Both the position numbers and the translations under genes were made by a program. This document shows, piece by piece, positions 3,429 to 62,006 of a DNA stretch of 64,000 nucleotides (the first letter of the stretch is position 1; the number at the start of each line of letters is the position of its first letter). The notes under the pieces were generated by a model, which worked only from the letters and a program-made list of their open reading frames with translations, searched no databases and was not told the origin of the DNA. Source of the stretch: Blattabacterium cuenoti (GTDB lineage Bacteria > Bacteroidota > Bacteroidia > Flavobacteriales > Blattabacteriaceae); contig NZ_CP059181.1 of NCBI RefSeq assembly GCF_014251235.1, positions 62,001-126,000 on the forward strand, read 5' to 3'.

Positions 3429-4132
3429 ATGTTAAAAAAAAAATAAAAATTATTACAGATACTTTAGATTTTCTTTATCCTAATCCAGTTAGTTCATTAT
3501 ATCATATTAATGAATATACTTTACTTTTAGCTATATTGTTAACCTCTAGATCTAAGGAGAAGAAAGTTAATGAAATAACAAGATCTTTGTTTAAGAGAAT
3601 AAAAAAACCTCATGATGTTATTTTTTTCTCTTTAAATGAAATGAAAAATTTCATAAGAAAGATAGGCCTTTTCAATAAAAAAGCTAAAAATATTTATAAT
3701 CTATCCATTCTATTGATAGAAAAACATGACGGAAATGTTCCAAAATGTATGAATAAATTAAAAGATTTACCAGGAATTGGTCGCAAAACGGCTTCGGTTT
3801 TCTTATCTCATGTATCTGAATATCCGGTGTTCCCTATAGATACTCATATTCATAGAATGATGTTTCGTTGGGAATTAAGCAATGGAAAAAACGTAAAAAA
3901 AACGGAAAAAGACGCTAAATTTATATTTTCGAAGAAAAATTGGAAAAAATTACATCTTCAAATCATTTTTTACGGAAGAGAATATTCTCCATCAAGAAAA
4001 TGGAATCTAAAAAGAGATATTATTTATCAAAAATTAGTCAATAACAATCTCTTAAAAAAAAATTATCAGAAAGGTAAATCGTCAAAATCTTCAGGAGTAA
4101 AAGAAGATGATATAGTTGAAGAAGCTTTTTGA
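3429..4132 (+). CDS. nth: Endonuclease III, reading frame broken by a 10-A run after the start codon
   Basis: Base-excision repair glycosylase/AP lyase for oxidised pyrimidines. The long open frame starts around 3431 without an ATG, and residues homologous to the family N-terminus (TDTLDFLYPNPV, then EYTLLLAILLTSRS) are encoded upstream of the first usable start, TTG 3536. An ATG at 3429 is followed by MLKKK and a stop, and adding one A to the run 3434-3443 joins it to the main frame, giving about 234 residues. The helix-hairpin-helix LPGIGRKTA with catalytic Lys and the catalytic Asp in FPIDTHIHRM are kept. The C-terminal [4Fe-4S] cysteines are absent: relatives have GREYCPAR here, this protein has GREYSPSRKWNLKRD. 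The 3' end overlaps the opposite gene by 67 bp. It may be expressed by slippage or may be decaying. Confidence 0.8.
3434..3443 (+). repeat. Poly-A tract of 10 at the start of nth (candidate slippage site)
   Basis: Ten consecutive A residues directly after codons 1-2 of nth. With ten the frame closes after five codons (TAA 3444-3446); with eleven it continues as KKKIKIITDTL into the full nth frame. Poly-A transcriptional slippage is described for other insect endosymbionts. Confidence 0.75.
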
Positions 4133-4419
4133 TCACCAAAAGAATTTTTTATCTCCTCTATTTTCCATCCCTGTATAGAATTAAAATATCTAATTATTCC
4201 ATCTGGATTTTTCCATTCTCTACCTCTTATATTGATGAATACTTTTACTCTATCTTCTTCTCTTACAGAATTTAATAAATCTACTTTTTCTTGGATAAAT
4301 TCTATCAGAATATTTTGTGGATATGGTTCTTCTGTTGTAATTACTATTTCTCTTTTTTTAAATCCGCTATCAAATTTTTGAATATCTAATAATTTTTTGA
4401 CTCTTCCTATTATTTCCAT
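4066..4419 (-). CDS. DUF3127 family protein with an SSB-like acidic tail
   Basis: Small Bacteroidetes-specific protein of 117 residues with the DUF3127 signature: FKKREIVITTEE, YPQNILIEFIQEK, NIRGREWKNPDG and YFNSIQGWKIE. The family is thought to have an OB-like fold. The C-terminus is a Ser/Thr-rich linker ending in PEDFDDLPF, very like the acidic DDxPF tip that bacterial SSB uses to recruit repair and replication proteins. That suggests a role near single-stranded DNA, but the function is not established. It is the first gene reached from the 3' side of a minus-strand run, 9 bp from the SPFH gene, and its 3' end overlaps the nth C-terminus on the other strand. Confidence 0.8.
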   Translation of the reverse strand: MEIIGRVKKLLDIQKFDSGFKKREIVITTEEPYPQNILIEFIQEKVDLLNSVREEDRVKVFINIRGREWKNPDGIIRYFNSIQGWKIEEIKNSFGDQKASSTISSSFTPEDFDDLPF

Positions 4420-4428
4420 CTTTATGCT

Positions 4429-39287: not shown

Positions 39288-40775
39288 ATGTATAAATATA
39301 TTTTTGTTAGTCTAATTTTTTTATTTATCGAACACATTATTCATATTTTAGGAACATGGAAGCTTTCTAAAAAAATTGGAATATCTCTTTTACAACAGAG
39401 TATCCCAATATATAATATTTTACTTCTTTTAAGAGTTTTTCATAGATCTGTATTCTGGATATTCCTCTTATTTATTCCTTTAACGAGTATTTTTCTATTT
39501 TTTATTTTATGGTTAGATATACTTCATATGTTTGGAAAAACAAGTAGAAAAGATTTAATTTTATTTTATTTATTTTTAGGTGGATATATTTACTATATTA
39601 ATTATTTTAATCATCTAGAATTAAAAAAAATAAAAGAAAAAAAATCTGAAAAATATTCAGGATCAAATATTATATTTGCATTTATTTTTTCTTTTCTTAC
39701 ACATACATATATTGTGCAGCCTTTTATTATTCCTACTTCTTCTATGGAAAGATCTATTCTAGTAGGTGATTTTATTATGGTGAGCAAACTTCATTATGGA
39801 TTGCGAATGCCTATCACTCCTATATCTATTCCATTTACACATAATTCAATAGGAAAATGGAAATCTTATATTCCATTTTTACAATGGCCTTATTTTCGTT
39901 TTACTCCTATTCAATCTATAAAAAGAAATGATATTGTTGTTTTTAACTATCCTAAAGATATTAATCATAAAGTTATAGATAGGAAAGAAAATTATATTAA
40001 ACGTTGCGTTGGTTTACCTGGAGATGTTCTTTCTATAAAGAAAGGAATTTTATTTGTTAATCAAAAAAAAGAAAAGGGACTTGACAATAAACAACAAATT
40101 TATTTTGTTAAAACAAGTGAAATTCCATTAAATTTGGAATATCTAAAGGATAAAATGGATGTAGAAGATATAGAGATAATAGGAGAAAAAAATAATGAAT
40201 ATTATTATCAAGTTATGCTGACTGAAAAAAAATCAATTCAGATAAGAAATTTATTTGATAATATAGTTTTTTTGAAAAAAAATCTATTTCCTATAGGTTT
40301 CAAAGAAATTTCTATATTTTCTAATAAATACAATTGGAATAGAGATTTTTTTGGTCCTATATATATTCCTAAAAAAGGTGACATTATTAAATTAAATTCA
40401 AAAAACATTGTTATTTACTATGATATTATTATAAATGAAGGAAACAAAATTATTAATAATAATAATTCACATTTTCTAATAAATAAAAAAAAAACAGATT
40501 ATTATAAAATACAAAAAAATTATTATTTCATGATGGGAGATAATAGACATAATTCTTTTGATTCCCGTTATTGGGGTTTTGTTCCTGAAGATCATATTAT
40601 AGGGAAACCTATCCTCATCTGGATGAGTATAGATTGGGATAGAAAAAACCCTTTTAATTTTTTAGATTGGAAGTTTCGTTGGGATAGAATTATGACTACA
40701 ATAAATGATAAAAATTGTTATTTTTGTTTTCTTTTCATATTTATATTAATATATTTTTTATGCTTAATTAATTAA
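39288..40775 (+). CDS. lepB: Signal peptidase I
   Basis: Membrane serine protease that cleaves signal peptides of exported proteins, 495 residues, the long form of Bacteroidetes with several N-terminal helices (residues 1-115). The catalytic Ser is in PTSSMERSILVGDFIMVSK near residue 151, and the catalytic Lys is in NYIKRCVGLPGD near residue 237. The C-terminal signature MGDNRHNSFDSRYWG is present, followed by a final hydrophobic helix. Its last 4 bp overlap the 3' end of the convergent rhomboid gene. Confidence 0.94.
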   Translation: MYKYIFVSLIFLFIEHIIHILGTWKLSKKIGISLLQQSIPIYNILLLLRVFHRSVFWIFLLFIPLTSIFLFFILWLDILHMFGKTSRKDLILFYLFLGGYIYYINYFNHLELKKIKEKKSEKYSGSNIIFAFIFSFLTHTYIVQPFIIPTSSMERSILVGDFIMVSKLHYGLRMPITPISIPFTHNSIGKWKSYIPFLQWPYFRFTPIQSIKRNDIVVFNYPKDINHKVIDRKENYIKRCVGLPGDVLSIKKGILFVNQKKEKGLDNKQQIYFVKTSEIPLNLEYLKDKMDVEDIEIIGEKNNEYYYQVMLTEKKSIQIRNLFDNIVFLKKNLFPIGFKEISIFSNKYNWNRDFFGPIYIPKKGDIIKLNSKNIVIYYDIIINEGNKIINNNNSHFLINKKKTDYYKIQKNYYFMMGDNRHNSFDSRYWGFVPEDHIIGKPILIWMSIDWDRKNPFNFLDWKFRWDRIMTTINDKNCYFCFLFIFILIYFLCLIN

Positions 40776-41473
40776 TACATTCTTTCTTTTTTTAAAAAAA
40801 AGTCTCCTATTAAATAACCGGATAATATACCTCCAATGTGAGCAAAATGAGCAATACCAGGAGAAAAATTAAAAACAGCAGAAAATAAACTTCCAAAAAT
40901 GAAAATAAATAAAGCTTTTTTAACAGCAATAGGAAAAGGAAAAGGTAAAATAAATATTTTATGTTCTGGAAAATATCGAGCAAAAGCCCCTACTATACCA
41001 CTAACAGCTCCAGAAGCACCCATCATAGGAGAATACATAGAAGAATAAAGGTTTATACGTTGTTCTGGATTTAAATCATATAAAGTTTTTTGTGCTTTAG
41101 AAAAATCCAAAGAATGAGAAAAATAATAAAGAATACTGGTATTAAAGAACAATTGTAATGAAGCAGCTATAATTCCTGATAAAAAATAAATTATAAGAAA
41201 TTTTTTAATTCCTAATAGGGATTCTATTTGTCCTCCAAACATGAATAAAGCTAACATGTTAAAAAGAATGTGCATAAAAAGATGTTTGGAATGTACAAAC
41301 ATATGAGTGAAAATTTGATATAATTCAAATCTATCATCTAAGGGATGGTATAAAGAAAATAAATTTTCTATTTTATATTGTGTAAAAACAAAAGTAGCTG
41401 TATACATAAGTATATTAATACTAATTAAATGTTTTACAGCATATGAATTAAAATTTGATATATAAAAATTCAC
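40772..41473 (-). CDS. Rhomboid family intramembrane serine protease
   Basis: Polytopic membrane protease of 233 residues with about six hydrophobic helices. The catalytic Ser motif is GASGAVSGIVGAF near residue 153, and the catalytic His is in FAHIGGILSGYLIGD near residue 213. The loop with HMFVHSKHLFMHILFNMLAL is typical of rhomboid helix 2. The substrate is unknown. It is 14 bp downstream of mutL, in the flavobacterial order mutL-rhomboid. Confidence 0.92.
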   Translation of the reverse strand: MNFYISNFNSYAVKHLISINILMYTATFVFTQYKIENLFSLYHPLDDRFELYQIFTHMFVHSKHLFMHILFNMLALFMFGGQIESLLGIKKFLIIYFLSGIIAASLQLFFNTSILYYFSHSLDFSKAQKTLYDLNPEQRINLYSSMYSPMMGASGAVSGIVGAFARYFPEHKIFILPFPFPIAVKKALFIFIFGSLFSAVFNFSPGIAHFAHIGGILSGYLIGDFFLKKERMY

Positions 41474-41487
41474 TTATTAAGTTTTTT

Positions 41488-43182
41488 TTATTTAAAATTT
41501 TTTTTTAAAACAAAAAATGTAGGATTTTCTGCATATATTCTTTCTTTGAAAGAAAAAAAATCTTTAATTAAAGATTCCATTTTTCTAGAATGTAATTTAG
41601 TTCCATATGTTATAGCTGAATATTTCGCTATAGATTGAATAAGTATTTCTTTATTATTTTTTTCTCCTTTAATAAAATTATATGTTAAAATATTTTTAAA
41701 AATTTTATTGAGTATATTTTGATGTACATTTTCTGGTGTAGAATAGAAATAAACTGATTGATTACAAAAATATAAATGAAATCCTATTTCCAATAAATCA
41801 TATTCAATATTCTTTAATGAAAAAAATTCATTTTTTGATAATTTCATTTCAATAGGAAAAAGGAAAGGTTGACTGATCAATTTTTTATTCCTTTTTTTAA
41901 AAAAAAAATTTAGTAAAATATTTTTATGAGCTTTATGTTGATCTAAAATTATAAAATAATTATTCCATGAAAATAGAATATACTTTCTACTTATTTGAAA
42001 TGTTTTTATATTTTTTTTCTGAAATACATAATTAGATAATTCTTTCATAAAAAAAGTGTCATTATCAAAATTTTTTATTTGATGAAACCACTTTTTTAGA
42101 TAAAGTCTTTGGTCTTTATAAGAAAATTCTTCCAAAAAAGAATTATAATGATTTGTAAATAAATAAGAATCATTGAAATCTTTTTTATTAACTTTATATT
42201 GATAACATAATATATTTTTTATTTCCTGTTGAATCATATTTCCTATTACATTTTCTTTTTCCAATTTTACTTCTTTTTTTGAAGGATGAATATTACAATT
42301 TACTAAATTTGGATTGACGTCAATAAAAATAAAATAAGAAATAGTTCTTAAATCTTTTAAGATTCCATCATAAGAAGAAATAATTTTTTTATGTAAGAAG
42401 AGATTTGTAATACAACGATTATTAATAAACAAAAATTGATCTCCTCTTTTTTTTAAAGAATGATTCGGTAGGCTTATAAATCCTTCTATTTTTATTTTCT
42501 TTTCTTTTATTATAATAGAAAGAGGAAAAAGTTTTTTTTGATTAAAAAGTTCTTGTATTCTATCTCTTAAATTAGCTTTTTGAAAAGAAAACAATATTTT
42601 GTCATTATGATAAAAACGGTAAATAATAGCTCGATGAGCTAAAATTATTTTATAAAATTCATTGATAATATGTTTATACTCTATTCTAGAAGATTTTAAA
42701 AATCGTCTTCTAGCAGGAAATTTGTAAAAAATATTTTTAACAGAAATTCTCGTCCCTCTAAGCATATTGATTTGAATTTCTTTTTTTATTTTTCCTTCTT
42801 CTATAAAAAAGTGAAAACCTACAGGACTTATCTCATTTTTTGTTTGAATTTCTAATTGAGAAACGAAAGCTATGGAAGCCAAAGCTTCTCCACGAAATCC
42901 TTTTGTGTTTATATTAAAAATATCTTCTTTTTTTCTTATTTTAGAAGTAGTATACTTCATAAAACTCATTCTAGCATCATTAAAACTCATTCCATCTCCA
43001 TTATCTATTAATTGAATTAATGTTTTTCCTGAATCATTTACAATGATATCTATTTTTTTTGCATTTGCATCAATTGAATTTTCTATAAGTTCTTTTAATA
43101 CAGAAGAAGGACGTTGGATCACTTCACCTGCTGCTATTTGATTAATAACTTCTTTTGGTAAAAATTGAATAAAATCTTTCAT
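41488..43182 (-). CDS. mutL: DNA mismatch repair protein MutL
   Basis: GHKL ATPase that links MutS to downstream repair, 564 residues. N-terminal motifs are intact: VINQIAAGEVIQRP, ELIENSIDANAK, IDNGDGMS and TKGFRGEALASIA. In the C-terminal domain the segment matching the endonuclease motif DQHAxxExxxxE reads LDQHKAHKNILLNF, so the acidic residues are missing; several flavobacterial MutL proteins are also poor here. It sits in a region where free-living flavobacteria, from memory, often have ribH upstream; that gene is absent. A non-coding 129-bp spacer separates it from the TPR gene. Confidence 0.93.
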   Translation of the reverse strand: MKDFIQFLPKEVINQIAAGEVIQRPSSVLKELIENSIDANAKKIDIIVNDSGKTLIQLIDNGDGMSFNDARMSFMKYTTSKIRKKEDIFNINTKGFRGEALASIAFVSQLEIQTKNEISPVGFHFFIEEGKIKKEIQINMLRGTRISVKNIFYKFPARRRFLKSSRIEYKHIINEFYKIILAHRAIIYRFYHNDKILFSFQKANLRDRIQELFNQKKLFPLSIIIKEKKIKIEGFISLPNHSLKKRGDQFLFINNRCITNLFLHKKIISSYDGILKDLRTISYFIFIDVNPNLVNCNIHPSKKEVKLEKENVIGNMIQQEIKNILCYQYKVNKKDFNDSYLFTNHYNSFLEEFSYKDQRLYLKKWFHQIKNFDNDTFFMKELSNYVFQKKNIKTFQISRKYILFSWNNYFIILDQHKAHKNILLNFFFKKRNKKLISQPFLFPIEMKLSKNEFFSLKNIEYDLLEIGFHLYFCNQSVYFYSTPENVHQNILNKIFKNILTYNFIKGEKNNKEILIQSIAKYSAITYGTKLHSRKMESLIKDFFSFKERIYAENPTFFVLKKNFK

Positions 43183-43311
43183 TTATTTTATTTGGTAGAC
43201 TTTATAAAAAATAAACTAGTTTTTTTAACATATGACTATGTTAGAAGTTTTAGATCTTAAATATTAAATTTAATATATTTATTAATATTTTAGTCTTTTA
43301 TATGCAAAAAA

Positions 43312-43952
43312 TTATATTTTATTTTCAATAAACATAAGATATTTATCTACATTTTCTTTATATAAAAAAAAAGGATATTTTTTTTCTATTTTTTTAAAAA
43401 AAAATCTAGAAATATGATATTTTTCCATAGAAAAAGTTAGTAAAGCTGTTTTATAATAATAAAAGGGGGTTGTTATTTCATTTTCTCTGATATTAGCTGC
43501 TTTGATATAATATTCTATAGCTTTATTTTTATTCCTAATTTGTGAAAAAGCATCACCTATAATTCCATATTTTAAAGAAGATAAAATTTCATCTTTTGCA
43601 GAAAAAGTTTTCATCATTTCTATAGATTTTTTATAATTACCTAATTTATAAAAACAAATTCCTGCGTAAAATTTAGAAATGTTTCCAGCTTTTGTAAAAG
43701 GATATTTAGTAACAATTCCATAAAAACCTATATAAGGATTTTTTGATTTTTTCTTATTTAAAGCTTTATCTACTTCTCCTTGTGATAGATATTGTAAAGA
43801 ATAAGTTAATTCTTTTAATGCTTTTTCTTCCGAAGGAAAAAGAAAAAATTTCTTATAAAGAAAAAATAAAACTAATGTGATGAAAATAAAACTGCAAAAA
43901 AAAATTAAAATTTTTTTTTTAATAAATAAAAAAGGTTAAAAAAGATATTCAT
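43312..43952 (-). CDS. TPR membrane protein, start separated from the body by a 10-A frameshift
   Basis: A tetratricopeptide-repeat protein of about 213 residues once one base is added. Read on the minus strand, an ATG at 43952 begins MNIFFNLFYLLKKK; the body continues in a different frame from the 10-A run (43911-43920 on the plus strand reads T10). Adding one A joins them. The body has a membrane helix (ILIFFCSFIFITLVLFF), then TPR-like helices: EEKALKELTYSLQYLSQG, KFYAGICFYKLGNYKKSIEM, GIIGDAFSQIRNKNKAIEYY. Without the extra A only a 101-residue ORF from 43617 is usually seen. The family is a common flavobacterial TolA/YfgM-like membrane TPR protein of unclear role. Confidence 0.7.
43911..43920 (-). 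repeat. Poly-A tract of 10 at the start of the TPR gene (candidate slippage site)
   Basis: On the minus strand ten A residues link the short ATG-started frame to the long open TPR frame. With ten the first frame stops two codons after the run; with eleven it stays open for the whole protein. The run length and the needed correction equal those in nth. Confidence 0.7.
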
Positions 43953-43988: not shown

Positions 43989-45302
43989 TCAACTTTTTTT
44001 TCTTATAACTTCTATAAGTTTTATTCTTTTATCATCTATATTCTTTATTATAAAAGAATAATTTAGAAAATTAATTTTCTGTTCCCGATTTGGAAATTCC
44101 TTATTTATTTCCATTATAAAACCTCCTAAAGTATCCGCATCTCCTTTTTTATTTTCAAAAGAAACTTCCTCTTTTATTCCCATAATACGATAAAAATTAA
44201 TTAAAGAAGTTTTTCCATCAAATAAATAATTATTTTGATCTAATTTAGAATAAGACATATCTTTTTCATCAAATTCATCAGTGATATCTCCTACTATTTC
44301 TTCTATCACATCTTCAAGAGTAATTAAACCACAAGTTCCTCCATATTCATCTACAACAATTGCTAAATGTATCTTTTTTTTTTTAAAATCGTTCAAAAGA
44401 TCATCTATTTTTTTATTTTCTGGAACAAAAAATGGAGGATGAAGTAATTGAATCCATTCAAGTTTCATGTTATGAATAAATGGAAGAAGATCTTTAGCAA
44501 AGAGTACTCCTTCTATATCATCTATACTATCTTTGTAGATAGGAATTCTAGAATATCCTTGATAACGAACAATTTCTAAAACATCTAAAAAAAACATATT
44601 TCTATTTAATGAAAACATATCTATTCTAGGAGTCATAATTTGATGAATTTCTGTATTTCCAAAATTCACAATTCTTTGTAAGAATTGACTTTCTTTAATA
44701 TTTTTTTTGTTCATAGAAGCTATTTTTAAAGCTTTAGAAAGAAGATCTACAGATATTTTATTCTTTTTTTTGGTCATTTTTTTTTCTATTACTTTAGAAA
44801 AAGTAATCATTATTTTACTAATTGGATTCAATATTTTTCCAAGAAAAATCAATTTTTTTGACATGAAAAGAGCAAAACGAAAATTATTTTTTTTAGCATA
44901 TATTTTTGGTATTATTTCACCAAATAAAAGCAATATAAAAGTCAAACATATTACTTCTAAAAGAAAATTAATAGAAATGGAATAATGGAAATTCTTTTGT
45001 AAAAATTCTCTAATTAAATATGAGCTTATTATAACAATTCCTATATTGGAAAAATTATTGGATATTAATATAGTTGCTAAGAGTTTTTTTCTATTATTAA
45101 GAATATTTAATATTTTATTTCCTTCAGAAATATTTTTTTTTCTTTCTTGATCAATAGTTTTCCTTTCAAGACAAAAAAAAGCAGTTTCTGAACCAGATAT
45201 CAATGCAGAAAACAATAATAATATTATGATTAAAACAAAATAAAAAACCACAATATATATAGAGCTTTCTAAAAAAATATTCTTCGAAAATTCTTTTTCC
45301 AA
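43989..45302 (-). CDS. gldE: GldE family protein (CNNM/CBS transporter-associated)
   Basis: Membrane protein of 437 residues with a DUF21/CNNM domain of about four helices (residues 15-190), two CBS domains (MTPRIDMFSLNR, GYSRIPIYKDSIDDIEGVLF, VVDEYGGTCGLITLEDVIEE) and a CorC/HlyC C-terminal domain. It matches GldE, first named in gliding motility of Flavobacterium. No gliding machinery appears here, so a magnesium- or ion-related role may be what keeps it. In free-living relatives ssb usually lies between mutY and gldE and gldD after it; neither is present. Confidence 0.85.
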   Translation of the reverse strand: MEKEFSKNIFLESSIYIVVFYFVLIIILLLFSALISGSETAFFCLERKTIDQERKKNISEGNKILNILNNRKKLLATILISNNFSNIGIVIISSYLIREFLQKNFHYSISINFLLEVICLTFILLLFGEIIPKIYAKKNNFRFALFMSKKLIFLGKILNPISKIMITFSKVIEKKMTKKKNKISVDLLSKALKIASMNKKNIKESQFLQRIVNFGNTEIHQIMTPRIDMFSLNRNMFFLDVLEIVRYQGYSRIPIYKDSIDDIEGVLFAKDLLPFIHNMKLEWIQLLHPPFFVPENKKIDDLLNDFKKKKIHLAIVVDEYGGTCGLITLEDVIEEIVGDITDEFDEKDMSYSKLDQNNYLFDGKTSLINFYRIMGIKEEVSFENKKGDADTLGGFIMEINKEFPNREQKINFLNYSFIIKNIDDKRIKLIEVIRKKS

Positions 45303-61992: not shown

Positions 61993-62006
61993 AATTATTT
62001 TTTTAC

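Follow-up and report, generated by a model that had tools for sequence, protein, structure and literature searches.

A frameshifted YfgM-type gene at a ten-A run in a Blattabacterium genome, one of eight genes broken at long A-runs

The window analysed here is a stretch of 64,000 nucleotides of Blattabacterium cuenoti (positions 62,001 to 126,000 of contig NZ_CP059181.1), which belongs to a genome of 613,216 bases with 25% GC. Between a gldE-like gene and mutL, its minus strand carries a gene of the YfgM type that is out of frame at a run of ten A, and the features of this region are as follows (positions in the window).

43989–45302, minus strand: gldE-like gene, the upstream neighbour, with CNNM, CBS and CorC_HlyC domains
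43950–43952, minus strand: ATG start codon of the YfgM-type gene, 36 nt past the gldE stop
43921–43952, minus strand: 5' segment MNIFFNLFYLL(K), ahead of the A-run and in another frame than the rest of the gene
43911–43920, minus strand: run of ten A in the sense direction (ten T on the plus strand), the site of frame loss
43855–43911, minus strand: predicted N-terminal transmembrane helix ILIFFCSFIFITLVLFFLY (hydrophobicity judged by eye; a helix in the AlphaFold2 model)
43618–43905, minus strand: 'hidden' coding part, without any ORF initiated by ATG, GTG or TTG
43378–43692, minus strand: TPR helices, residues 72–176 of the model (AlphaFold2 pLDDT 92; matched by 8zht chain B; Pfam TPR below cut-off)
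43312–43617, minus strand: ORF of 101 residues, the 3' half of the YfgM-type gene
41488–43182, minus strand: mutL, the downstream neighbour
40772–41473, minus strand: gene for a rhomboid-type membrane protease, downstream of mutL

On the minus strand, a frame of 207 codons that begins at 43935 and is closed by the stop at 43312 has no internal stop codon and includes the 101-residue ORF. A preliminary description made from the letters alone had proposed that 43618–43950, which looks non-coding, encodes a membrane helix and TPR helices continuous with this ORF, and both the stop-free codons and the homologues bear this out. At the base composition of the window such a frame has a chance probability of about 5e-9, 20 shuffled versions of the window contained no open frame of at least 200 codons, and 48 of the 49 genomes of the genus have an orthologue, by which a chance open frame is ruled out. 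Upstream of 43617 the frame contains no ATG, GTG or TTG, so that the nearest well-placed start is the ATG at 43952, as had been suggested; it can be seen directly in the sequence that this codon is cut off from the main frame by one base at the A-run. One base lost (or two gained) in the run means that literal translation of the printed sequence from this ATG ends at an in-frame TAA 16 codons on. The segment ahead of the run resembles the N-termini of the relatives, for example MINFSFCTFLKKKK in G017. In addition, the upstream context of the ATG was scored with a position-weight model built from 230 starts that are conserved when this genome is compared with that of another species (G020). Among real starts its score falls at the 93rd percentile and among random sites at the 99.7th; the ATG at 43617 reaches the 42nd percentile of real starts. 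The locus is an overlooked real gene whose frame is one base short at the ten-A run.

The comparison set consisted of 49 congeneric species representatives, one genome per species, and the count of 48 orthologues includes this genome; the others are 47–79% identical, and relatives at about 30% identity were found in four free-living Flavobacteriaceae, mostly Polaribacter. Nearly all of the congeneric genomes have an ATG in frame before the membrane helix. The same lysine-rich stretch is encoded by an A-run of 14 in G017 and of 13 in G032, and in several other relatives the run is broken by AAG or AGA, all of these copies being in frame; of the 49 genomes, only this one has the ten-base run with its lesion. 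Compared with G043, the hidden part (43905–43618) has a pN/pS of 0.24 with 19, 8 and 36 differences at codon positions 1, 2 and 3, the 3' part (43617–43312) one of 0.30 with 13, 5 and 24 differences, and the whole gene one of 0.27. Constraint is no weaker in the hidden part than in the remainder, which excludes conservation confined to the region downstream of 43617, an outcome for which the preliminary description had allowed. Moreover, of the change accumulated after this genome and G043 diverged, a share of 0.60 fell on this branch; the median for 48 ORFs of the window is 0.577 (SD 0.10). The low pN/pS and a branch share near the median indicate that the hidden half is under purifying selection, with no sign of decay or rate acceleration on this branch.

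In Polaribacter the gene order is TPR gene, ribH, a small ORF, mutL and rhomboid gene, and the order TPR gene, mutL, rhomboid gene is retained here without ribH. No ribH (lumazine synthase) was found in the gap 43183–43311 or anywhere in this genome; 39 of the 49 congeneric genomes keep it, adjoining the YfgM-type gene and mutL. In G014, a genome of 511 kb and the only congeneric one without the YfgM-type gene, gldE adjoins mutL (locus L104), and ribH, PpiD and the rhomboid gene are missing as well.

The AlphaFold2 model of the restored protein, built on an alignment of 30 sequences, has a mean pLDDT of 92; in it a long helix at the N-terminus leads into the TPR helices. The solved structure that it matches best is chain B of 8zht, 'Structure of PpiD-YfgM complex', with a TM-score of 0.91 (by target length) and a Foldseek E of 1.2e-9. 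Sequence searches lead to the same chain (phmmer 1.1e-20, profile 1.6e-34), and the TPR domain is homologous to it along its length. Only generic TPR families of Pfam were matched, below cut-off, and the YfgM-specific model gave no match for this protein, so that we do not place it in the Pfam family of E. coli-type YfgM, which we take to be TPR_21. By sequence and modelled fold the product is a Bacteroidota YfgM, and its TPR domain would, by homology, bind PpiD at the periplasmic side of the Sec translocon. Like the YfgM of 8zht in sequence, fold and predicted N-terminal membrane helix, it also has an intact partner: a PpiD candidate is encoded in an uninterrupted frame of 706 amino acids, of which residues 43–703 match 8zht chain A at 5e-22. 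The differences are that the gene is frameshifted in this genome and that, relative to the free-living flavobacterial proteins, the N-terminal cytoplasmic part is shorter. E. coli YfgM shares the single N-terminal membrane helix (predicted here), the TPR domain and an encoded PpiD partner; however, the gene here is linked to ribH/mutL and not to bamB, and the YfgM-specific Pfam match is lacking. PpiD occurs in 48 of the 49 genomes and is absent solely in G014, which also lacks the YfgM-type gene, a joint loss that is suggestive only because it is a single event. A product started at the ATG at 43617 would lack the membrane helix, and only about half of the mature protein would be left. It would be no substitute, since E. 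coli YfgM whose membrane segment had been swapped by a frameshift did not accumulate and was non-functional (PMC9643414).

A second gene of the window had been reported to carry the same lesion, and we identify it as nth.

3429–4132, plus strand: nth (endonuclease III), with its ATG at 3429 (TIGR01083, E 1e-52, below the model cut-off)
3434–3443, plus strand: run of ten A in nth, the site of frame loss

At 4020–4132 the stop position of the relatives is lost in nth, and the frame continues into the convergent gene 4068–4428, at that gene's 3' end. Copies of nth that look split in G002, G015, G023 and G034 were left out of use; the one examined, in G002, proved to be sequence past the stop of the orthologue. 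The two genes do share run length and offset, as described at the outset, but the pattern is not confined to them. A survey that compared N- and C-terminal lengths with G020 over 424 of the 613 kb found eight genes broken at sense A-runs of 10–12, all with one frame offset (binomial p 0.008). The six further lesions lie at these positions of the genome, with identities taken from domain matches and the names idi, ung, murB and murE given partly by eye.

238.5k: NlpC/P60 gene, run of ten A
256.6k: murE, run of eleven A
271.0k: murB, run of eleven A
286.3k: mvaD, run of twelve A
437.0k: idi, run of eleven A
482.7k: ung, run of ten A

Among coding sense A-runs of at least 10, 8 of 112 are broken and 104 are in frame, against none of 665 runs of 8–9 (p about 1e-7); sense T-runs of at least 10 number only 15, too few for comparison. 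G020 has lesions of this class of its own, three with the same offset and one with the opposite, at 137.4k, 283.4k, 329.8k and 456.0k (by eye, apparently rnpA, an unnamed gene broken at a T9 run, nadD and miaA). Of the two causes offered in the preliminary description, a shared mechanism or a systematic base-calling error, the first agrees with a pattern common to eight genes, and the second is unlikely as a general cause because 104 of the 112 runs are in frame. We attribute the pattern to the vulnerability that long A-runs ordinarily have in AT-rich endosymbionts.

As to how the gene stands today, we lean towards partial rescue, in which RNA polymerase adds A residues to yfgM transcripts and the gene is still functional. 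In the simplest account, a replication slip in the A-run of the lysine-rich segment before the membrane helix would have shortened the run; RNA polymerase would then slip on what is still a long A-run and add one A in a fraction of the transcripts, and we infer that these corrected transcripts would yield enough full-length YfgM. Insertions in Buchnera transcription fall in homopolymers in 151 of 157 cases, are mostly of a single base and rise exponentially with run length (PMC5574713). Moreover, the passage of PMC5009743 that cites Tamas 2008 gives 12–50% corrected transcripts in endosymbionts. An inserted A has the right sign for all eight lesions, yfgM and the seven others alike. However, the Buchnera study found no frame-restoring event, and plain deletion bias in A-runs or under-calling of homopolymers also predicts a uniform offset of this sign, and for these reasons we hold slippage to be only somewhat probable.

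That the loss of one base simply inactivated the gene, and that decay is beginning on the way to what is seen in G014, where the YfgM-type gene and PpiD are both gone, we consider unlikely, although the gene can evidently fail. Besides the loss in G014, the frame of the G040 copy (locus L050) is broken after the membrane helix and before the TPR part, close to a short run of five A, at which slippage rescue is not expected. In G041, G045 and G042 (loci L027, L030 and L051) one-base homopolymer lesions lie near the 3' end of the orthologue, the final residues being conserved in another frame. With the breaks in these four genomes, the YfgM-type gene breaks more often than mutL, of which none of 49 genomes has a split copy, or the rhomboid gene, with none in 48. 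Against a null allele, constraint is not relaxed on this branch and the PpiD partner is intact; furthermore, the cell-wall genes murB and murE carry the same lesion, and a cell that still makes peptidoglycan can hardly do without their products. On the other hand, a lesion private to one genome is perhaps too young to show decay.

It is rather unlikely that the lesion is an error of sequencing or assembly, the true run being one base longer and the gene intact. Under-calling would leave runs of 10–12 one base short, as all eight lesions are, and the 3' lesions in G041, G042 and G045 are possibly homopolymer errors of older sequencing. However, the run lengths must be mostly right, since nearly all of the long coding A-runs are in frame, and the same class of lesion is found in other genes of another species, G020.

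Bacterial ATT starts are very rare, and we give little credence to an explanation without any frameshift, in which translation starts at an in-frame ATT (43923) just ahead of the A-run. This codon counts as a genuine rival because it aligns with the ATG start of G041 (ATG, then AAA AAA AAA), and it is near the starts of G001 and G047; the product, MKKKILIFF..., would look normal. Its context, however, ranks only at the 20th percentile of real starts, where the ATG at 43952 ranks at the 93rd, and nth has no comparable codon that could rescue its frame. A shift of the ribosome by one base backwards at the AAA AAA run is highly improbable, although the run is a slippery sequence and the offset of each of the eight genes has the sign that such a shift would correct: the 93 nt downstream of the run fold no better than shuffles (z -0.49) and hold no stimulatory structure for a programmed frameshift, and there is no conserved signal, the relatives needing none.

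Returning to slippage of RNA polymerase as the favoured reading, the yfgM lesion, be it real or apparent, belongs to the class of poly(A) frameshifts described for Buchnera and Blochmannia: it is a single indel in a long A-run of an open, homologous frame, under purifying selection without rate acceleration. Blochmannia genomes have 4–8 such genes each (PMC3017870, PMC4389277). The poly(A)-tract genes of these symbionts (Tamas 2008; Wernegreen 2010; B. vafer, PMC3017870) too lie in AT-rich reduced endosymbiont genomes, have a single indel in a long A-run and are otherwise intact and conserved, show no rate acceleration and occur several to a genome. In some of them nearby strains have the lesion in common, although this does not define the class. 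The present case differs in that the organism belongs to the Bacteroidota, the lesion is known from the genome sequence alone and is private to one genome, and it lies at most 16 codons from the start. From the same phylum, homopolymer-frameshift pseudogenes are described in the scale-insect symbiont Walczuchella; in the passage of PMC3971599 that deals with them the authors say that they may still be functional, and that passage contains no gene-level analysis of selection or offset. A further suggestion, which we regard as doubtful, is that across the genus only the offset correctable by slippage persists, so that slippage would shape the surviving mutations, and that the start-proximal run of yfgM would act as a dose control on PpiD-YfgM.

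With the gene restored, the annotation regains a putative helper of the Sec translocon where gene callers would show a 101-residue ORF and intergenic DNA. Blattabacterium is added to the endosymbionts with the poly(A)-frameshift phenomenon, eight such genes lying in roughly two thirds of a single genome. If slippage inserts A residues, one would expect lesions that need an insertion to be kept and those of the opposite sign to decay. Such runs may also inflate the pseudogene counts of AT-rich symbionts.
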